Shown here piece after piece: positions 43,001 through 55,000 of a stretch of 64,000 bases of DNA. Where the stretch lies: contig JAEMWC010001104.1 in NCBI GenBank assembly GCA_016490735.1, forward strand, positions 86,001 through 150,000. Direction: 5' to 3'. The position numbers and the translations under genes were made by a program. The notes under the pieces were generated by a model. It ran no database searches and was not told where the DNA came from. It worked only from the letters and a program-made list of their open reading frames with translations. The DNA is from Pachyseris speciosa. Lineage: Eukaryota; Cnidaria; Anthozoa; Scleractinia; Pachyseridae. Positions within the stretch are counted from its first letter, which is position 1. Each line of letters opens with the position of its first letter.

Positions 43001-46000
43001 TATTTATAAGTATAAAAAGCGTATGAGCCTTATCCGGCGTCATCGCTATTTATATTCTGGTTATGCAATATCAGAAAGAATATTACAACCATGAACATAA
43101 CACAGCGATTATCTATACAAAAAGAAGCATACTATGTGAATATTGAACGGTAAAATCTTCGATAGAGTGCAACCCTTTTCGACCGGAAACCAAGAAATAT
43201 CCAAGTATCCAAAGTATCCAAGTATCTAAGTATCTCAAGTTCCGCCTCAATTGAGGCGGAGCTGTCAAAACTTGACATGTTCACGCTCTAAATTAATTTA
43301 ATAAAAAAAAAAAAAAAAAAGCGACAATTTGTCTAGTCAAACTTGAATTTTTTAAGCGTGGAACAACGCGGAAAAAAGTTGGCCTTTCACGGTAGCTCGA
43401 AAATGGTAGTATTTCTCTATTGGTTTTTAGGTCAGTATTTAAAGTATCCCTCCGGACCCACAGCGAAGATTTTGAGTGGTGAATTCGCCGAGGCTGTAAA
43501 ATATCTTGCCATTTTTATCACTACACAGCAGGCTCGCTCAAACGCATTCTCGTCCCCAGAGCCACTCGTCTTAAAATGTCGTTGACGAGTGGCTCTAGAC
43601 GCGCCAAAAAATTCGAATTTTTTCATTGGCTGACAAAAAATAAATGCGCAACAAGAATTAAGTGATGAAGTACTACGCACTTCCTGTCATTCTCGTCCCC
43701 AGAGCCACTCGTTTGCAGTTACCGTTACGGGTGAGATATATTTTGCACAATTCAACAATGGAATTTGACATTCTCTCTGTTACCTTGCTTATAAACCTTC
43801 AAGCCAACACGTAGTGTCTTCAACTTTTCAATTTGGTCGGGAATGAGCACATTCAGTGGCGAAACTACAAGAACACAACTGCTTACAACCGTATAAAGAT
43901 CTATGGTCCACCACGAACGAGAGAAACTGCAATATCAGCGATTTTCGAAACCCCGTGGGCGAAATACACAGCCAGTCTCGTTTCTGTACAGCTACTGCAT
44001 GCAAGGCAGGTTGTTGTTCCCTTTTCCTATAGTAAATTTTCTAGTTTCAATGAAGTTAGTCTCGTTCAAAGCTTCGCCGAACCAGCTTTGGAGCCAGCCA
44101 TCATAAAAAACCAAAGCTGGGCTGTCACTCACTTCCTGAGGATACATATCTGAGCATGAGCAAATACATTCTTGGCAATATGACATGCGCTTCCGGATGT
44201 CCGTGATTTACGTAACTGCTGCTACCAGAGCCCTTCGTTTCTCCGACCACGTGACCAAAAGAAACGGAAACTCTGGGGACGAGAATGGCTCAAACGCAGA
44301 ACAAATGCGCAACCGCCAAAACAAGTTACTAACTCGTTTTACCGGTTCAAATTTAATTTATTCGTCCTTGGCGCTGAACGGCGGCTCACTGAAAGAAACG
44401 AACGGTCGCTCGCAGTGGCTTCTCTCTCGGGAAGCGAAGGAGAAACCAACTGTTCCCAGCGTATGAATAAAGCGATACGCGACCGAAACTTCAACACGGT
44501 CTTGCCATAGGCACCCCGCGTAACAAAAAATCACGAACGAGTTTATTAAACACAACAACAAAATCAGTAATTAATTACTGACATCCAAGGCCTGATGTGG
44601 ACGTTCTTAAAGGACAAAGAATGACAGTCACTGTGATAAAAAAGACCAACGTTAAGTTCGAAGTTTCCCTAGTCACACGAGCGAGTAATTTAAAGTAGAA
44701 AAGATGACAGTACTCGGATATTTCAATATAAATAAAGTGCTGAAGTGTGACGTCACAAATATTAGAATTTTTGAAATTATGGATTTGTTGAGATTTTCAG
44801 AAAGAGCAAGATGAAAAAATAAGGCTAATTGGCCAAAAATCAGCAATTGAAGGCAAATTGGCTTTGAGATATAAGCGCCGTTATGCTCTGCTGACTCCAT
44901 ACAAATCCTTCTAAATTTGACTTGGTTCATAGCGTTATGAACTAAGTAAAATTTAGAAGGATTTGTATGGAGTCAGCAGAGCATAATGGTGCTAATATCT
45001 TGCTCTAAAACTGTACGAAATGCTGATTTTTGGCAAAGAGGTCTTTGTTATCGTGTTCTTTCTAAATATCCGAACAACTCCCAAAATTTCAAATTTGGGT
45101 TTTGTGACGCCATCACTTTAGTACTCTATAAAACACAAACAAACAAACAAACATTTACCTCCTGGATCTGTCCGTTGTTCTACCCACTCGGAGTATGGCC
45201 CAAGCCCGCCGCTTGACTGACAAGCCACACGTATCCGATAATGGCGAAAAGGTTCTAAGTCAAGGATTGTATGAACGCGCCCCTTGACGTTCTCGTTAAT
45301 ATTCTTCATGTTCGGTTGATCTCTATCGTAGTACATGACGTCATAACCCTCGATGATGCCATTCGGCTCAGGTGGCGGGACCCAAGACAAGGTAATGGAT
45401 ACTGAGGTGGTGCCGTTTATTACGATATTCCTTGGTGGATCTTTAGGTTCTATAAAAGGAATAGGACATAACAAGAGTGTCGATTAATTGCACGGGAGAG
45501 TACTTATGGCCATGGTATTGTTAGGTCGACTTCACAGCTTCCATCATTAACAACTTGCTGAAAAACCGTGCTTGCCAATTTTTTTCACATGCCACCCCCC
45601 TTAAAGAGGTAATTTTTTCGGATGACCCCCCCCCCTAAAAAATTAACCCTCTCCCAAGAGTTTACCTTTTTAAATATTTTCTGTTATTCCCTAATTCACG
45701 TGATTGTGCTTGCTTTGAAGACAATATTTACGATTTCTATACTAGAGAGCCCAGGGCCGGGGGGGGGGGGGGGGGGGGGCTCACTTCGAACGCATTAGCG
45801 TGAGTAAACTAGGGGGGTCTGGGGGCATGCTGCCCCGGGGAATTTCAAATTAAAGTCCTCTGAACTGGCTGGAACGGCATTCCTCCAGAGTCAATGGCAT
45901 CACTTTCAGTGATACTCATTATTACGGTGGCCCACAACTGTCACGGCAAAATAAAAAGACCCACGGTAAAAAGAAAAGACTCGCGGCAAAAAGAAAAGAC

Positions 46001-49000
46001 TCGCGGCAAATTAAAAAAACGTCACGGTAAATTAAAAAACCTCACGGCAAAAAGAAAAAACCTCACGGCAAAAAGAAAAAGACACAAGGCAAAAGAAAAA
46101 AACCTCACGAAAAAAAAAAAAACAAGACTCACGGCAAAAAGAAAAGACTCGCGGCAAAAAGAAAAAGACTCACGGCAAAAGGAAAAATCTCACGGGAAGA
46201 GGAAAAACCTCACGGCAAAAGGAAAAACCTCACGGCAAAAAGAAGAAGACGCAAGGCAAAAGAAAAAAACCTCACGGGAAGAGGAAAAACCTCACGGCAA
46301 AAGGAAAAACCTCACGGCAAAAAGAAGAAGACGCAAGGCAAAAGAAAAAAACCTCACGGCAAAAAGAAAAAACCTCATGGCAAAAAGAAAAGACTCGCGG
46401 CAAATTAAAAAACCTCGCGGCAAATTAAAAAACCTCACGGCAAAAGAAAAAACCTCACGGCAAAAAGAAAAAGACTCACGGCAAAAGAAAAAACCTCACG
46501 GAAAGAGGAAAAACCTCACGGCAAAAGGAAAAACCTCACGGGAAAAAGAAAAATAGCGGGGAATTGGGTCGAGTTTACTGGAAGAGCACTATAACATGCA
46601 GTCCGCCATCTTGAATCAAAAGTACGAGGAGGTATGTTTTGCTCCAATTGTGGAAAACAACTTGCAGAAGGGGGCAAGTTCTGCACCAATTGCGGAAAAG
46701 GTATCATATAACGTTGCTTATTGTTTGTTACTTAATTACTGAGAAGATCGAGTTTTATCTACTGCTTTTAATTTGTTCATGTTTGTGACGGAAAGATTTT
46801 GACTGAAAGCGGTGTTACTTTCGATTAGTTCGCAATATGATTGAAAGAAAAAAGGCATTTGACCTTATTTCCAAGATTAGAAACTCCAATAAATGTTGTA
46901 GTCTGAGTCGTGTCACACAAAACAGTACACAACTTCGCGGTGAACTGGCTTTTGCAAGATTTGTCAGTAGGGATGAGTAAGGCTTAAATGACTCATGAAT
47001 AAGCTTAAATACAAAATAAAAATTATAGAATTAGACAGTTTTAAAGAGAGGACAACAGAAAAAAGGAAAAGACATGAGGCTGAAACAGGTAAAGTAAAAC
47101 AAAATATAGGTAAAGAAATTACTCTAAGTGGGTATTTCCCCTTGATCTAAATAGGTAGAATGAATGTTGAGTGCTGTCATAAATTTGATATTTCTTAAAG
47201 GGAAACATGGGTCTAGAAACTTTTTACCTTAAATGAAAGGCCACGTACACACGATTTCAAATCTGGTATTCGTTTGGTTTAGCGCCGTTCTAAAGTCTAT
47301 TCAGATGACTTTGAAATCGCGCTAAATTGCCCCTTTTGAGAGCACGGGGCCGCCATCTTGGAACTGAGAAATGATATCGAGGCTGTGACGTAACATTAGA
47401 CAAGCTGATCTTTGGCAAACAGAGGATTTCTGTGAAGATTGAGTCATTTTGATTCAATACCTTGCTGTTAGCTGCAAAAACAGTTATACAAATGCTAAAG
47501 GACGGGTTACCTTTCATGTACTACCTTCGTATGAAAGAATGAGAAGATTGTAGCTCGCAAAAATAAAAACGTGAGTGTAAATTACCGCCTTGAACTGCTT
47601 TGACTGTTCCGACCAATTCAAGTTTAATACATCTGAGCCGGACAACACGCGAGATCTTCAGGTACGTGAGATTGTTTTCATTCGTGTTTAATGCCTTTAT
47701 TTAAAATGTGCTTACTAGTTCCTTGCTTTCCTCTTCTATTTTCTTTACCATAGTGAACGGTTTTCTCCATTTTTTGAACACACGAACTCAGCATTAGCCA
47801 TGCATATTTTGTCACGCACGCATACCGGCATACATTGTTTGTGGCCGTATATTTTGTCGGAATAGTGCGAAAGTAATTATCTACAATCACAGCGATAGCC
47901 ATTTTAATTTCATACGAGGACTATACCATGAAGTCATAGCCTTCCTCGTTTGGTAGGGTGCGTAATAATAAATTTAATCGTCCCTTGTTTATTACTTTAC
48001 AGGCACAGCTTCTCGGAAGAAAGGGGAGAGGAATGAAGCCACTATTTGACAGCTGATTTGCTGAAGCTGTCCCTTCCATTTTCAGCTCGCAATGCAGAAA
48101 TATTGCCTTTAGTATGTAGTTTAGAATTTCCATCGATTTTCAAAGAATGGAGCTGTAAGGGAGTTGAGGTCCCGTCGGTCTCATTTATTTTTGTATAGAT
48201 ACGCAGGTTCAAGTCAGTGTTGCAAATTATTACCCCGGCAAAGAATCATTTCCCTTGGCATCGCATCTTTAAAGCCTGTATTATTACCGCCTTCTTTTGG
48301 GCATTCATTTTGGATTGCCGAGACAACGCAAGAAGGAATCACCCGTCTATTCCCCTTTCCAAGGTTGTTGTACAGTTTATATTTCCAACACGTGAACTGT
48401 CGGTAGACAGCTAATCTCATGCTTCTGAAATAATAATTTCAGAAAATGATATGATTTAATAATCCCAAAAGAATATTAGCCTTGAGGATTGAAAAGTTTA
48501 TTCATTTCCATCCTAGTTACGTGCATGCATTGAACATGCTAAATGAAATCAACCTTGTTTACACTTTTTCATATAGAGAAATAACCCTGTGGCACCCTCG
48601 GTGGTAGGTGTTGACGTCCACAATTACTCTCTTGTGTGGTCTCGCAATTTACTAATTGCGTATTTGTAAGTGAAACCAGGAATACTATGTAGCCTGATCA
48701 CAAGTGCCTGAGTTTCACTGGAGACAAATGACTGGAACCAAAACTCGTTCCAAAAAATGAACATCCGTTGAACAAAACATTCGAGTTCCCGTAGCGAAGT
48801 CCAGACTATAGTATTTTAAGCTGTGCACGGTAGCGCGCTCTCGGGAGGAAATGTTCACAAAATCAAGCACGCGAAGCATATTTATATCGCCCTTTTAAGA
48901 AATCTCTTAAATAAGCAACAAATTCTTCTCTTGGTTCAGTTGGTAGTGTGAAAAAATAGGAATTTATTTGTGGGCATCGCTTAATTAAGTTGATTTTATA

Positions 49001-52000
49001 CATCACGAAATTGCTCTGTTGTAAACCCTTACGGTACATTCTGTAGGGACCTTCTAGTTGATCACCGCGCACATGATTATTAAGTCCGACAAGAGCAGTC
49101 CTTAAAACATCCGCTAACAAACAGACAAGTTGAAAGGACTTGTGTTCTGTTGTGTATCTGTACAGCGTTCCTGGATAAATGGACAGCAATTATCCCAGTA
49201 CTAGTAAAAGTTGGCCTGCACGCCTAGGGAGCATATTGTGCGGTAATAATCCCAACGCGTTCGGTTATTGGAATAGTCGACTTTTTAAAGTCGGTCTCCC
49301 AGAAAGGCCATCTCGGCCTGTCAGCAAATGCTTTCGGTTTCTGTAGACAAAACCTGGCAATTGCCGCAGACGCACTATTCGTGATCGGCCAAGGCGCGAT
49401 CGATGGTATGGTACGCTCGGCTTCGGTTTCTTCTGTTTTTTTGTTTACCTTGAGCTATGCTGAAGTCAACTTCTTCTTCTGAGGACCTGCCGTTTTGTGG
49501 TTCAAACATAAACGGGTGTATTGCCACATTTAAAGAGATATCTAGCTCGAGAATCGAATCGTTCTCACTATCCATATCACTGTTAACATCTTCTCAAGCC
49601 AGTTCGCCTTGTCTAATGTGACGTCACAGCAAAGATGGCGGCTCACGGGGAAAAAATATCAATATTTTGTCCTCGATTACCGGTAAAGAAATTGATGACA
49701 GGTCAAATCAATGTTATTATCAGTTATTTCACCGTATGAATTTTCACTTTAGGTGAAAATTTTCTAGGTCCTTGTTTCCCTTTAATTATTTCACCAGGCA
49801 TTTCTTCAACATGTGAAGATGACCAACCATCTTACACAGGTATGGACTAGATAGGAGAGAGATGCAAGTATCTATCTTGTCATTAGAGTGAGAACAAGTA
49901 ATATCGCTAAGGGAAGTGTCTATCAAGGCCATGAAAGCTCATTCCAAGGATGTTCATGGCATAGAGTGACTTTCAGTTTGTTTGCAAACCAAAAGCTCAC
50001 CCAAATGTACAAGATGCATGTCCGGGCAAACACCCTTTGAAAACCTTAATATAATTTACGTATCATTCCATCTGAAGAGAGTTGGAGTGTGCTTTGCATT
50101 AGGCAGAGTAGGTGAAATTTAATCAAGGATAACAGCATACAATATGGAAAAAAACCCACCATCCTGTGTCCCTTGCAATCACAGATAAAGGAATTTCAAA
50201 AACAGCAGGGGAAGTTTAATGAATGTCAAAACAACCTGTTCTGTCCTAAGCTAGAATTTCAGACATTTCTGTAAGCCTCTGTCAGTAAGGAAACGTTATG
50301 TTAAGTTATTTTTGTATGTAGTCGCAGGCCCTTCTTCAACTGCTACAAGGCCAATTTCAAATGCTGCAGGCTCAGTTTCAAGTCCTGCAGGCCCACCCCC
50401 AAGTGGATGTGTCAGTGGTAAAGCCATTAAATCATTCTCTGCATATCGTAAATCAAAGGGACATCAGTGGAAACAGTGTGTGAGCAAGAAGTCAGTAAAA
50501 GAAGAAGAAGAAGTAGCAGTAGGAATTGGTCTAATGGAATTCAATGAAAAAGAATCAAGGCTAAAACCGGTTAGAGGGAAAAGAGTCATGCTCCGAATAT
50601 CTAACAGAGCCCCATATGAAGATGTCCGTATGCAGGCAGAGGCAAAGTTTAAAGTTTATCACAACAACTGTTACAAAGAGGGAGAGGAGTACCATTTACG
50701 ATATGAAAGTGGGAAGGAGCCCAGTTTCTACCTGGGACAACTGAGTTTGTTCACCCTGAAAAGATATAAAGAAGAGACTGGAAAAGATTACAAGTGCATC
50801 GTTCTGTACCTATGTACAAATGAGGACTTGAATGCAAATGAAAAATCCTGTTACTGACGAAGAAGAAAATCTGTTTGCAGAGGATGACAGTGCTGGCCGG
50901 CCAGAGAAGAAACTGAAGTTAACTCAAGTTGAAATTGATGCAATGCTGGCCAGGCAGCTCCAGTCAGAACTAGACAACAGTGAACATGTTGATGCCGACA
51001 ACCAGTCTTCTGAAGTTATTAGCGATCAAGACCTTCTCATCTGCAAGGCACCAAGCCAAGACACAGTGGAGAAATTTGACAGTTTCACAGCTCTAATATC
51101 GTTTTTGAAGATTAAAATCATGGAGAAAGATCAGTTCTTTTTTGTCGTGAGGAGGGGTTCTTCTCTGCAACGATACATAACAATTTGGCGGAGAGAGGCC
51201 AAGACAAAAACATCTGAAAATCAATTGCGAGTGCATTTTGCGGGCGAAGACGGTATTGACACTGGTGCCATGTCAAAGGAATTTCTGTCATCTGCTGTTC
51301 ACTATATCAGAAGTCAGGTTTTTCCAAATGGTGCACCAACAGACTCTATGCTGTATGCCCACAAAGGGTTCTTTTACACATGTGGCCAGATTTGCGCAGT
51401 CAGTATCGTACAAGGGGGGCCACCCCCTTGCCTATTTGTGCAGTGCATGAACGATATGTTGATCAACCCGGATGTAGATGTGAATCAACTCACTGCAGAT
51501 AAGAATCTTACCAAGCATGGGAAAGACTTCATTGAAAGAATTAACAGTGATCCCAACCAAGTGGAGGATGAAATACTCGAACATGGGTATACAGGAATCA
51601 TAAGTGCTGACCACGTTGAGGCTATAATTGGCACAGTAACATTGAGCACTGTAAGTAAGAGGCTTTTATACCTTAGAGAGTTCAAAAGAGGCCTGGACCT
51701 CTATGGTCTTCAAAGTGTACTTCACAACAGTGCGGAGCTGTGTAAAGAGCTCTTCCTAATAAACCGAGATGAAGTGGACGCTAATTATGTCGTTTCTCTC
51801 CTACACCCCGAATTCTCCGAGAAAGGCTCGTCGAAAAGACAAGTAGAAGAAATAGTTTTTGACCACCTTCATGACTTCATTCTACACGTTGGAGATACTT
51901 AAGTAATTGGATACAGTGAGGAGCGTGCTTATGATCATGCAGACACCGGGGTTGCAGCAGGTGAAGAGTGTAAATCTGAAGAAAGTTCCAAAGTTCAATC

Positions 52001-55000
52001 TGCCGACATAAGTCCCTTAGGCCTGTTAGGATAGTTAACCGGACAAAGGCATCGGCCTATTGATGGACAAAAGTTGCTTATCTCAATCCCAATCACACGC
52101 TTTGTTTTAGCGTTGTTGGAGCGTGTGCAAGAAACCTCACTTTGCCAGTGGCCCACATGCGAGAGCAGGAGTTCAAAAGGGTTATGCTGCTTGCGTTTTG
52201 CAAGGGACAGGCATTTGGTCTCAGATAACTTTTCTACCTGATCTGTATGGAATCTTTGATAACTTCCACAGCTTTTGTGTTACAAGGAAGGATACCCACT
52301 GACTTGTTGTGCTGGTATTTCCTTGTTTTTGGCGCTTTGAACTAGAAAATTACTTATGTTAGAAACACCTTGAGAGCAATCCATGTTGGAGTTTATGTTT
52401 GTTTAGGGATTGAATTTTACAGTTTTAAACTCTGTTCATTCAGCTTTCTTCTTTAACTGAGAGCGTAACAGCCATAATAATAAGTTGTAAGATTTTGGCA
52501 TGTTTGATAAAGCTGATATTCCAGTTTCATCTCTGCATATATTTACTGTGTTTGTAGTAAATGAAATTATTTTACTGCAGAGGGGTGTAGTTTTGCAAAA
52601 GTGTTTTTAGCATTTCAATACGAGTACCACTGTTACGCTTTACATGTATAAGTCCCACTTAGCTTTGCTTTTTGCCCAGCTATTTAATTAGCGTGACCCT
52701 TGGATTGCACTAAGTTCTGCCTTCATATGTTATGGCAATGGTTTCATAGTGTGAAAAGGTGTGCATAAGAAACTGTAGATTGGGATTAAGAGCCTGCAGT
52801 GGAAAGTTTGGCAAAATATTAACTATAGCTGCAACAAAATAAGAACTACTGCATCCAGACATATGGATCATGAAAAATTGTAAACCTCACTCACTTTGCA
52901 AAGCTTAAATTTGAAGTTTACCGGTAGATAAGACTAACAAACTGTCAGGGACTAATTGATGAATGCATATAGGCCTGAAGATCAGTGCTTTATTTGTATT
53001 ACAAACAGTACACAGTTCAGCACTGCTGACCCTGTAAAAAAATTAGAACCAACTCAACAATGTAAACCTGGTCTCTCGCTAGATATCCCAAATGTAACAA
53101 CCATTTCTGCCTGCCTGGGAAAACAGGAGTTCTTGTGTGGTGTTCTAATGTGCTAGTCATTTGGAACTACACAGAGCCATTCAAGATATGCTAATCGTTT
53201 CCCCTACCATGAAAGATCTACCCAGTGTAACCATTTGCAGCTATACAAATTAGTTTTTGAAATAACTCGAGTGCATCTTGCCAATTTGTGGGTTTTGATG
53301 CCCCTAGACTGTCCTTGACATATTCAAAGTATTCCAGATGGACATTGTTCTCTGTTTCACAGATGCACTGTTGCGAAACTTCATCGACCTCTGCCATGGG
53401 TACCTTTTAAAGCAGATCTGTTGCACCTCCATGGTACTCTGGTAGGAAAAACAATGAGTCTGGCCTTCGAGGCACAGTGTCATGCCTGGATTTCCTTATG
53501 CAATGAGTGTTCCAGTGCTCTTTAACATGATTGCACTCTTTCTACAATACAAAAGAGAAGCAGTACCAAAGACACTCTGTGTGGATTTCAGATGTTGTAT
53601 CAATTACAACCTGGGTTTCTCAGTCTTCAAAAAAACTTCTCCACCATAATGTCCGATTCTTGCAAAAGAAACTCCACCATCCTTCAATTCTTTGATTTCT
53701 TGGAGAAGGCACATACCTGTGAGCATCATCATTTTCTCTGAGATAACACTGCATGGAGGCAACTAAGCCATTCTCAGTACCCAGATCTGTAACCAGTTCA
53801 ATTGGGACACCTCCTAATTCAGCAACAGTGTCTAAAAAATACCTTGCTGGATTCCCTGGCAAATTATTTAAGCGTGCAACTTTAAGCCACAGTATGCGTA
53901 GGCTAAAGCCATCGTTGCATCCATGTATTGGGAACCCCCATGGCTTTAATTTGTCATATCCATCTAGATGCTACGAATAATTTGGTCCTGGATTGCGGTA
54001 AACTCTTCTCCTTAGGCGGTGCTCTTTACGGGCTACAACACCCTCTGGATCTATTTCTTGAAGCAATTGTTGTATAATTATTCTAGGTACTCTGATGCCT
54101 TCTAGTTGAAGAGTATGCCAAACAGATCGGTACCCTCCAGCTGATAATGGGCCACTAACTATTTCTTCTACACGTTTCCGAACCTCATCTTCCGGGTGCT
54201 GTATACCCTGGTTCCGTCTAGAAAGCCCATACTGCTGTAGTTTTCTCAACAGGGTACTATAGCTGATGTTGTAATTATGATTCTTAGAATAAAGAGGATT
54301 ATTTCTTGATACTCAAAGCCCCTATTGAAATAGTACTTGATAACTGCCTCTTCATCAAACTCCACTTCACTGTCTGTATCTGAGTCATCCTCTCTCAGAC
54401 CTGTGGAGATACGAAAAAAATAGCTCAATGTCCTCCAGAGCTGCGTCTCTTCAAGAACATGTTTGAACTAGGCAGTCCAAGAGTACGTCTTTTCACAGTG
54501 ACATCAAACGGGAAACAAAAATCCACCATGCGTCCCAAACTTTCGAAGCCAGCTTATTTGAAATGCTCACCTTTTCCACAGTTTGAGCAAAAATTGTCCC
54601 CTTCTGCAAGATGTTTTCCGCAATTGGAGCAAAACATTCCTCGTGCTTCGGTTTCAAGATGGCGGACTGCATGTCCTGGCAACTCGACCCAATCCCCCAC
54701 TATTTTTCTTTTCGCCGTGAGGTTTTTCCTCTTGCCGTGAGGTTTTTTCTTTTGCCGTGAGTCTTTTTCTTTTTGCCGTGAGGTTTTTTCTTTTGCCGTG
54801 AGGTTTTTTTAATTTGCCGTGACGTTTTTTAATTCGCCGCGAGTGTTTTCTTTTTACCGTGGGTCTTTTTATTTCGCCGTGACAGTTGCGGGCCACCGTA
54901 CATTATTGTCACTTCATCCGTTTCACTGCTGTCAGCGCTTGCCCTGTTGTCATCAGTTGTGTCAATGTCTTGGCATTTCTCAGTGTTGGTTGGCCAGCTC

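Follow-up and report, generated by a model that had tools for sequence, protein, structure and literature searches.

A predicted zinc-ribbon first exon in both terminal inverted repeats of a two-gene DNA transposon of the coral Pachyseris speciosa

The element in the window and its two genes

The stretch of DNA analysed here, in the following referred to as the window, comprises 64,000 nucleotides of contig JAEMWC010001104.1 from the stony coral Pachyseris speciosa (positions 86,001 to 150,000). At 45923-54900 the window contains a decayed copy of a cut-and-paste DNA transposon of the IS3EU/GingerRoot type, with two convergent genes, one encoding a transposase and the other a HECT protein. The element ends in TACGG..CCGTA, starting with TACGGTGGCCC at 45923 and closing with the complement of this sequence at 54900, and it is flanked on both sides by an exact copy of the hexamer CATTAT. 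The transposon proposed in an earlier note on this DNA proved to be real. Most of each terminal inverted repeat (TIR) is made up of ~20-bp repeats (Table 1). Further inward, as the earlier note had claimed, both TIRs contain a 67-nt exon with four cysteines. The two copies, which differ at 9 of the 67 nt, are open over 22 codons each, end in phase 1 and are directly followed by GT. Together with a few of the next residues, the short N-terminal peptides of both exons, with their CxxC..CxxC arrangement, scored 31.4 and 35.6 bits with the Pfam zinc-ribbon profile PF13240 (cut-off 25), and within the full HECT protein of a sister copy of the element, L011, the same profile scored 24.2 bits, slightly below the cut-off. 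The joins suggested previously, from the left exon to 49798 and on to 50328, and from the right exon to 54400, would also work, as all three acceptors have an AG directly before them and the frame is kept. In the window copy itself these junctions are intact but the genes are not: frame changes or stops occur downstream of the junctions in both, and neither full protein could be made.

In Pfam, the window transposase belongs to the rva_4 integrase core family (PF24764). The HECT gene pieces of the window gave no HECT match in the Pfam search, and the HECT identity of this gene was assigned because the intact relative L011 matches PF00632, with 26.9 bits over the whole protein (cut-off 23.9) and no single stretch above the cut-off alone. 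Two further relatives, P0151 and P0166, gave PF00632 scores below the cut-off or no match. A profile of 41 HECT relatives found 11 PDB sequences, all 11 of which are HECT ligases. In addition, a structural model of the HECT relative P0121, with a mean predicted local distance difference test score (pLDDT) of 82, was compared with known structures using Foldseek, and the best 50 of 206 matches were HECT ligase structures, mostly by title; among them were Tom1, HACE1 and 6j1y, which we take to be HECT ligases. The CFP motif with the expected C-terminal cysteine was at least 90% conserved in the 41 relatives. Judged from these comparisons and the model, the HECT-like exon of the earlier note does encode a protein with the HECT fold and the C-terminal catalytic cysteine, for which ligase activity is predicted.

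For IS3EU/GingerRoot elements, the accessible parts of two papers describe TA..TA termini, usually 6-bp target-site duplications and a DDE transposase, and for members from rust fungi that bear TET they describe TAYGG..CCRTA ends (PMC10045372, PMC12730594). The window element is alike in its termini (TACGG..CCGTA) and in its duplication length (CATTAT in the window, and exact 6-bp duplications in 25 of the 31 end pairs described below), and with its PF24764 integrase core it has a putative DDE transposase. Termini and duplication length fit the IS3EU/GingerRoot group, and the placement rests on these two features. As far as the main text of the two papers is accessible, the term HECT is absent from it, and an exon within terminal repeats is undescribed (PMC10045372, PMC12730594).

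Table 1. Positions of the parts of the transposon, its flanks and its nested insertion in the window.
Feature	Position	Strand	Remarks
Left target-site duplication, CATTAT	45917..45922	.	exact copy at the other flank
Left TIR	45923..46702	+	TACGGTGGCCC end, ~20-bp tandem repeats, leader, zinc-ribbon exon
Array of ~20-bp units, ~30 copies	45941..46553	+	candidate transposase-binding repeats
HECT gene exon 1	46634..46700	+	ATG, Cys4 zinc ribbon, phase-1 donor AAAAG/GTATCA
Nested 2583-bp insertion, TTAA-flanked	47199..49781	.	foreign to the element; empty site in L011
HECT gene exon 2, 42 nt	49798..49839	+	present in family F1; dispensable in F2, where the ribbon exon reads in frame directly into the main exon
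HECT gene main exon	50328..52228	+	decayed here, open in L010 and L011 (668-aa frame); 3' end read from the sequence
Transposase exon 2, PF24764 integrase core	53218..54400	-	decayed here, open in L011 (416 aa when spliced); 3' end read from the sequence
Right TIR	54569..54900	-	~20-bp tandem repeats at 54703-54882
Transposase exon 1	54571..54637	-	ATG, Cys4 zinc ribbon, phase-1 donor AAAAG/GTGAGC
Right target-site duplication, CATTAT	54901..54906	.	exact 6-bp match to the left

Sister copies and a second family

The genome of which the window is part (984 Mb) was searched for related elements. The terminus pattern, with up to two mismatches allowed, had at least 158 matches in this genome versus none for the reversed control. 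We fetched 31 convergent end pairs (L009-L039), selected by a TACGG-type end with up to two mismatches; the ends of these copies were the search criterion itself, so they provide no independent test of the termini. One-base variants of the terminus were seen in L009, L017 and L036. The 6-bp duplications flanking the 31 pairs were exact in 25, had one mismatch in two and were more divergent in four. Two of the pairs, L010 and L011, are full-length sisters, 98.7% identical across their longest match, and together with the window element are assigned to family F1. Both genes are open in L011: its spliced transposase has 416 aa and no stop, and a single 668-aa frame holds its HECT main exon; L010 has kept the HECT frame and carries a frame change in the transposase.

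A DNA search with the leader and exon, in which 40 of 49 candidates were scored, yielded four exons of the HECT-side type, located on contigs C1104 (the window), C35 (L011), C31 (L010) and C288. All four were open and positioned 481-711 nt inward of a terminus, and each was accompanied on its contig by a transposase-side exon in convergent orientation. A HECT body was seen with three of them (the window, L010 and L011). On C288, which bears the fourth F1 pair, the two exons are 9.3 kb apart and the transposase has stops.

The same arrangement was present in a second family, F2, in which L009, L012 and L013 have the exon in both ends. Here the exon is of the type MFCSACGSLVDQNA(N/T)FCK(G/D)CGK and 65-67 of its 67 nt are identical between the ends, while the F2 transposase shares ~61% identity with that of F1. 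Both frames are open in L009, the HECT frame comprising 691 aa, and in L013 the transposase is open and the HECT gene broken. By sequence, the acceptors of the F2 HECT gene (TTTACTCAG/CAATTCC) and the F2 transposase gene (GTCTTAG/ACCTAAGG) would each take a phase-1 exon, and the ribbon exon is directly in phase with the HECT main exon, with no counterpart of the 42-nt exon 2. An F2-like terminal repeat was also observed in L044, where it ends before the ribbon exon and is followed by unrelated sequence.

Of 12 exon ends from six elements, 10 had the motif CCGCCAT 28-40 nt upstream of the ATG, and the remaining two had TCGCCAT. The CCGCCAT motif, which we take to resemble a YY1 site, could be part of a promoter. 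When five families were sampled (L081-L083; 46603 and 54665 in the window), CCGCCAT or ATGGCG, presumably YY1-like as well, was noticed near the start codon.

Conservation of the exon and competing explanations

The two ends of three F1 elements (the window, L010 and L011) were compared with each other, with 300 shuffles as control. They were 82-87% alike in the exon and 57-65% alike in the 60-nt leader. In the 60 nt past the donor the likeness was 44-47%, which is the shuffled level (mean 45%, maximum of 300 55%), and the similarity between the ends therefore stops at the edge of the exon. In F2, the likeness between the ends extends ~60 nt into the intron. The ratio of nonsynonymous to synonymous differences per site (pN/pS) between the two exon copies was 0.18 in the window and 0.28 in L011; third codon positions accounted for 7 of 9 differences in the window (p=0.008) and for 7 of 11 in L011. 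Furthermore, all four cysteines were kept in both copies of the F1 pairs compared. The exon copies of one element differ by 9-12 nt in F1 and by 0-2 nt in F2, and F1 and F2 counterparts differ by 25-29 nt. Copies within an element are thus closer than copies of the same gene across families, and this is the pattern of either concerted evolution or a separate duplication in each family.

We consider it probable that the TIR is a composite structure, in which a start codon and ribbon exon borne by the repeat feed both the transposase and the HECT ligase. The outer part of the TIR, with the TACGG end and the ~20-bp repeats, would be the end recognised by the transposase, while the inner part would comprise a presumptive promoter and leader, the start codon, the 22-codon ribbon exon and the phase-1 donor. 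The exon of one end would be spliced to the transposase body and that of the other end to the HECT ubiquitin ligase body, and both proteins would thus start with versions of the same ribbon. The ribbon was probably the N-terminus of the transposase, with which it is contiguous in another family (F5), and was later incorporated into the inverted repeat. For the HECT gene, a convergent neighbour in many copies, promoter, ATG and ribbon may then have been supplied by the repeat at the opposite end. Repeated homogenisation would keep the ends alike, as expected where recognition demands likeness, with selection at the protein level in between. The most likely use of a common ribbon would be to direct both transposase and ligase to one DNA target or partner, and the ligase may act either on silencing factors of the host or on the transposase itself.

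It is possible, though rather unlikely, that the repeat-borne exon only supplies a promoter, a start codon and a donor, and that the ribbon has no shared role. A gene within the element has to be expressed from the ends. This is so in MuDR, for which the accessible part of one paper reports that the repeats contain both promoters and the transposase-binding site (PMC3440606); moreover, no ribbon was found in the families F3 and F4, with 301 nt read in F4. Such a plain start would have no need of the four cysteines, which are nevertheless kept in both F1 copies at a pN/pS well under 1.

Another explanation would be that the exon serves the transposase alone. Its copy at the HECT end would then be a passive consequence of the length of the inverted repeat, and the HECT protein would start elsewhere. 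Long repeats do duplicate sequence near the ends, as seen from transposase exon 2 at both ends of L039 and from the ~60 nt of intron in F2, and the F5 ribbon has so far been found on the transposase side only. However, around the F1 copies the intron is no more alike than expected by chance, whereas the exon, its four cysteines and the donor are intact, the HECT-side copy is open in four of four cases, the HECT acceptors are in phase in both F1 and F2, and an octocoral HECT gene model has an N-terminal ribbon. We therefore regard this explanation as improbable. A chance open frame in an inverted repeat, or a mis-assembly, to which the decay of both genes in the window might point, has next to no probability, since L010, L011 and L009 lie on other contigs with 6-bp duplications of their own, F2 has a different exon sequence in the same phase, and chance is ruled out by the independent copies, the second family and the four of four convergent exon pairs.

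Proteins from other species were examined in a search of 5.8 billion proteins, which returned 1835 transposase relatives at E ≤0.001 (the best 120 listed) and at least 63 HECT relatives. Most of these carry no source name and derive from contigs, and a first exon lying apart may be invisible there. The Cys4 motif was present in the first 60 residues of 6 of the 184 proteins examined, three of them transposases (P0044 from Dendronephthya, P0184 from Xenia, and P0063) and three HECT proteins (P0151 from Dendronephthya, P0166 and P0182). Octocoral gene models with an N-terminal ribbon thus exist for transposases (P0044 and P0184) as well as for a HECT protein (P0151), and for P0184 the database's own annotation includes PF13240. 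When 87 transposases were placed in a tree, the five ribbon rows all fell on the 71-row side of a branch with 100/100 support, and the opposite 16-row side includes P0080 and P0097; the frame of P0097 passes from an apparent terminal repeat to the transposase and includes no ribbon. In Stylophora pistillata, the end of P0169, named 'Protein HEG-like 1', is by eye very like the F2 HECT protein, and P0169 is probably a gene model that extends into a transposon.

To what extent the two genes travel together was assessed from whole-genome protein searches in which 105 of 1564 transposase and 72 of 265 HECT candidates were scored. Into this pairing test entered 50 and a further 49 of 115 transposase rows, with one HECT row per place; the omitted 16 rows were second pieces of loci or pieces of short copies. 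A HECT match within 12 kb was found for 31 of the 50 transposase places, including families F1 to F5, and it was convergent in all 31.

Several observations weigh against a composite TIR that feeds both genes, or narrow its reach. Every splice is a prediction from sequence. The exon pN/pS between F1 and F2 was 0.43-0.63, implying that longer-term constraint is weaker or that sites are saturated. On C288, no HECT match was among those listed, and the transposase-side terminus was not found in the stretch read. The F3 transposase (C97) begins with MATADD.. immediately inward of the repeats, and no ribbon was present in the sequence read from terminus to transposase; that of F4 (C181) begins with MADGDS.., preceded by repeats of a similar kind, and no ribbon was present in the 301 nt read, which did not reach the terminus. 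A ribbon-like stretch in F5 (C124), MAAVVNSTTALKCEVCTAILTICNKFCSSCG.., recognised by sequence and without Pfam, directly adjoins the transposase and shares its frame; a DNA search with it found six places on six contigs, none of them paired, and no second copy. The F5 HECT body has an upstream phase-1 acceptor, TTTTTAG/GTACAACACC, and its upstream exon was not seen. With the 72 scored HECT candidates, no HECT match was nearby for 19 of the 50 transposase places, nor for the 49 further rows, which are mostly of distant families. The octocoral ribbons of P0044 and P0151 scored 15.6 and 14.2 bits with PF13240, below the cut-off, and there was no ribbon in the gene models P0164 (a Xenia HECT protein) and P0080 (an Oculina transposase). 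In the transposase tree the five ribbon rows are unclustered, requiring 5 changes, and 500 of 500 shuffles were as low. The origin of the ribbon from the transposase is probable on the evidence of one family, F5, and binding by the ribbon is putative.

A single origin of the ribbon in the transposase tree was thus not demonstrable, the 5 of 87 rows being scattered with changes no fewer than for shuffled labels. Most of the other rows in the tree are predictions from genomic or metagenomic contigs, in which an exon set apart could escape notice. As a universal rule the layout was rejected, since F3, F4 and F5 differ. The earlier note's idea of a coding first exon in both TIRs for two convergent genes consequently applies to F1 and F2 and does not extend to all relatives: its proposed check, whether related elements always have the ribbon inside both TIRs, came out positive for these two families, gave no ribbon in the stretches read of F3 and F4, and in F5 gave a ribbon on the transposase side with no second copy found.

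The terminal repeats of DNA transposons are normally seen as non-coding recognition ends, at most with promoters. We tentatively suggest a more general possibility, namely that the TIR is a portable 'start module' of binding sites, promoter, leader, ATG, ribbon exon and phase-1 donor. Inserted bodies with a phase-1 acceptor would be trapped by it and given the N-terminal domain of the transposase, and concerted evolution of the ends would keep the tags of transposase and partner alike. If the composite structure of the TIR is correct and its two ends evolve in concert, a single stretch of DNA is constrained as transposase substrate, promoter and protein domain together, and transposons have a simple route to gain and tag accessory genes. 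The layout also gives a testable statement on a HECT ligase whose gene is convergent with that of the transposase in many copies of the lineage.

Known systems, derived copies and a nested insertion

By analogy, the nearest functional parallel would be MuDR of maize. The MuDR transposase is unrelated to that of the present element, and Mutator duplications are ~9-bp; with its rva_4 transposase and 6-bp duplications, the element does not belong to MuDR/Mutator and the likeness is functional. As in the element, two convergent genes in MuDR encode a transposase and a second protein, and promoters lie in the repeats, those of the element being predicted; unlike in the element, the start sites are in or just inside the repeat, and a shared coding exon is undescribed in the part of the paper accessible (PMC3440606). 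According to the accessible part of another paper, the ICP22 and ICP47 genes of herpes simplex virus 1 (HSV-1) are likewise driven from repeats, which lie on either side of a unique segment and carry copies of one promoter, and an intron precedes the coding sequence; this is, however, a viral system, its intron separates the promoter from the coding sequence, and no protein domain is shared (PMC10688380). The composite-like KolobokP transposons, as far as their description is accessible, are DNA transposons of animal phyla that combine a DDD/E transposase with a second gene, which encodes a His-Me finger endonuclease in place of HECT, and exons within their repeats are not mentioned in that part (PMC9587614). 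In the literature searched, with most subscription papers and the Repbase Reports outside the scope, no paper joining IS3EU with HECT was found, and nor, in sources partly accessible and again outside the Repbase Reports, was a transposon with a terminal-repeat coding exon common to two genes. A scan of viral contigs gave no match.

The expectation in the earlier note that internally deleted copies keep the exons was contradicted by the short F1-derived copies L014-L038, all 25 of which have lost the HECT gene and retain ~10 nt of the exon at that end. The transposase-side exon was readable in 21 of these copies and had TGA as codon 7 in each, the remaining 4 of 25 being unread; this stop is absent from L053, which is of the same sequence type. 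As a group, L014-L038 are derivatives of 3.2-5.7 kb that have in common the HECT-gene deletion and, in the 21 read, the premature stop in the ribbon exon, and they probably represent a non-autonomous burst. Five of them (L027, L032-L034 and L038) have the flank TTGGTT in common and three of the five lie on contig C778, which suggests segmental duplication over separate insertions. In L039, the exon is open at both ends, and the base preceding the donor GT is changed from G to C. This copy is a fold-back-like derivative, with the sequence of the ribbon exon and of transposase exon 2 at both ends.

Lastly, the 3.1-kb first intron of the HECT gene in the window was ruled out as native, as it includes the 2583-bp TTAA-flanked insertion. 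The native intron, as read from L011 with its empty insertion site, measures 516 nt. The insertion has imperfect inverted ends, with 36 of the first 60 nt alike, which read AGGGAAACA..TGTTTCCCT, and it is presumably Kolobok-like.

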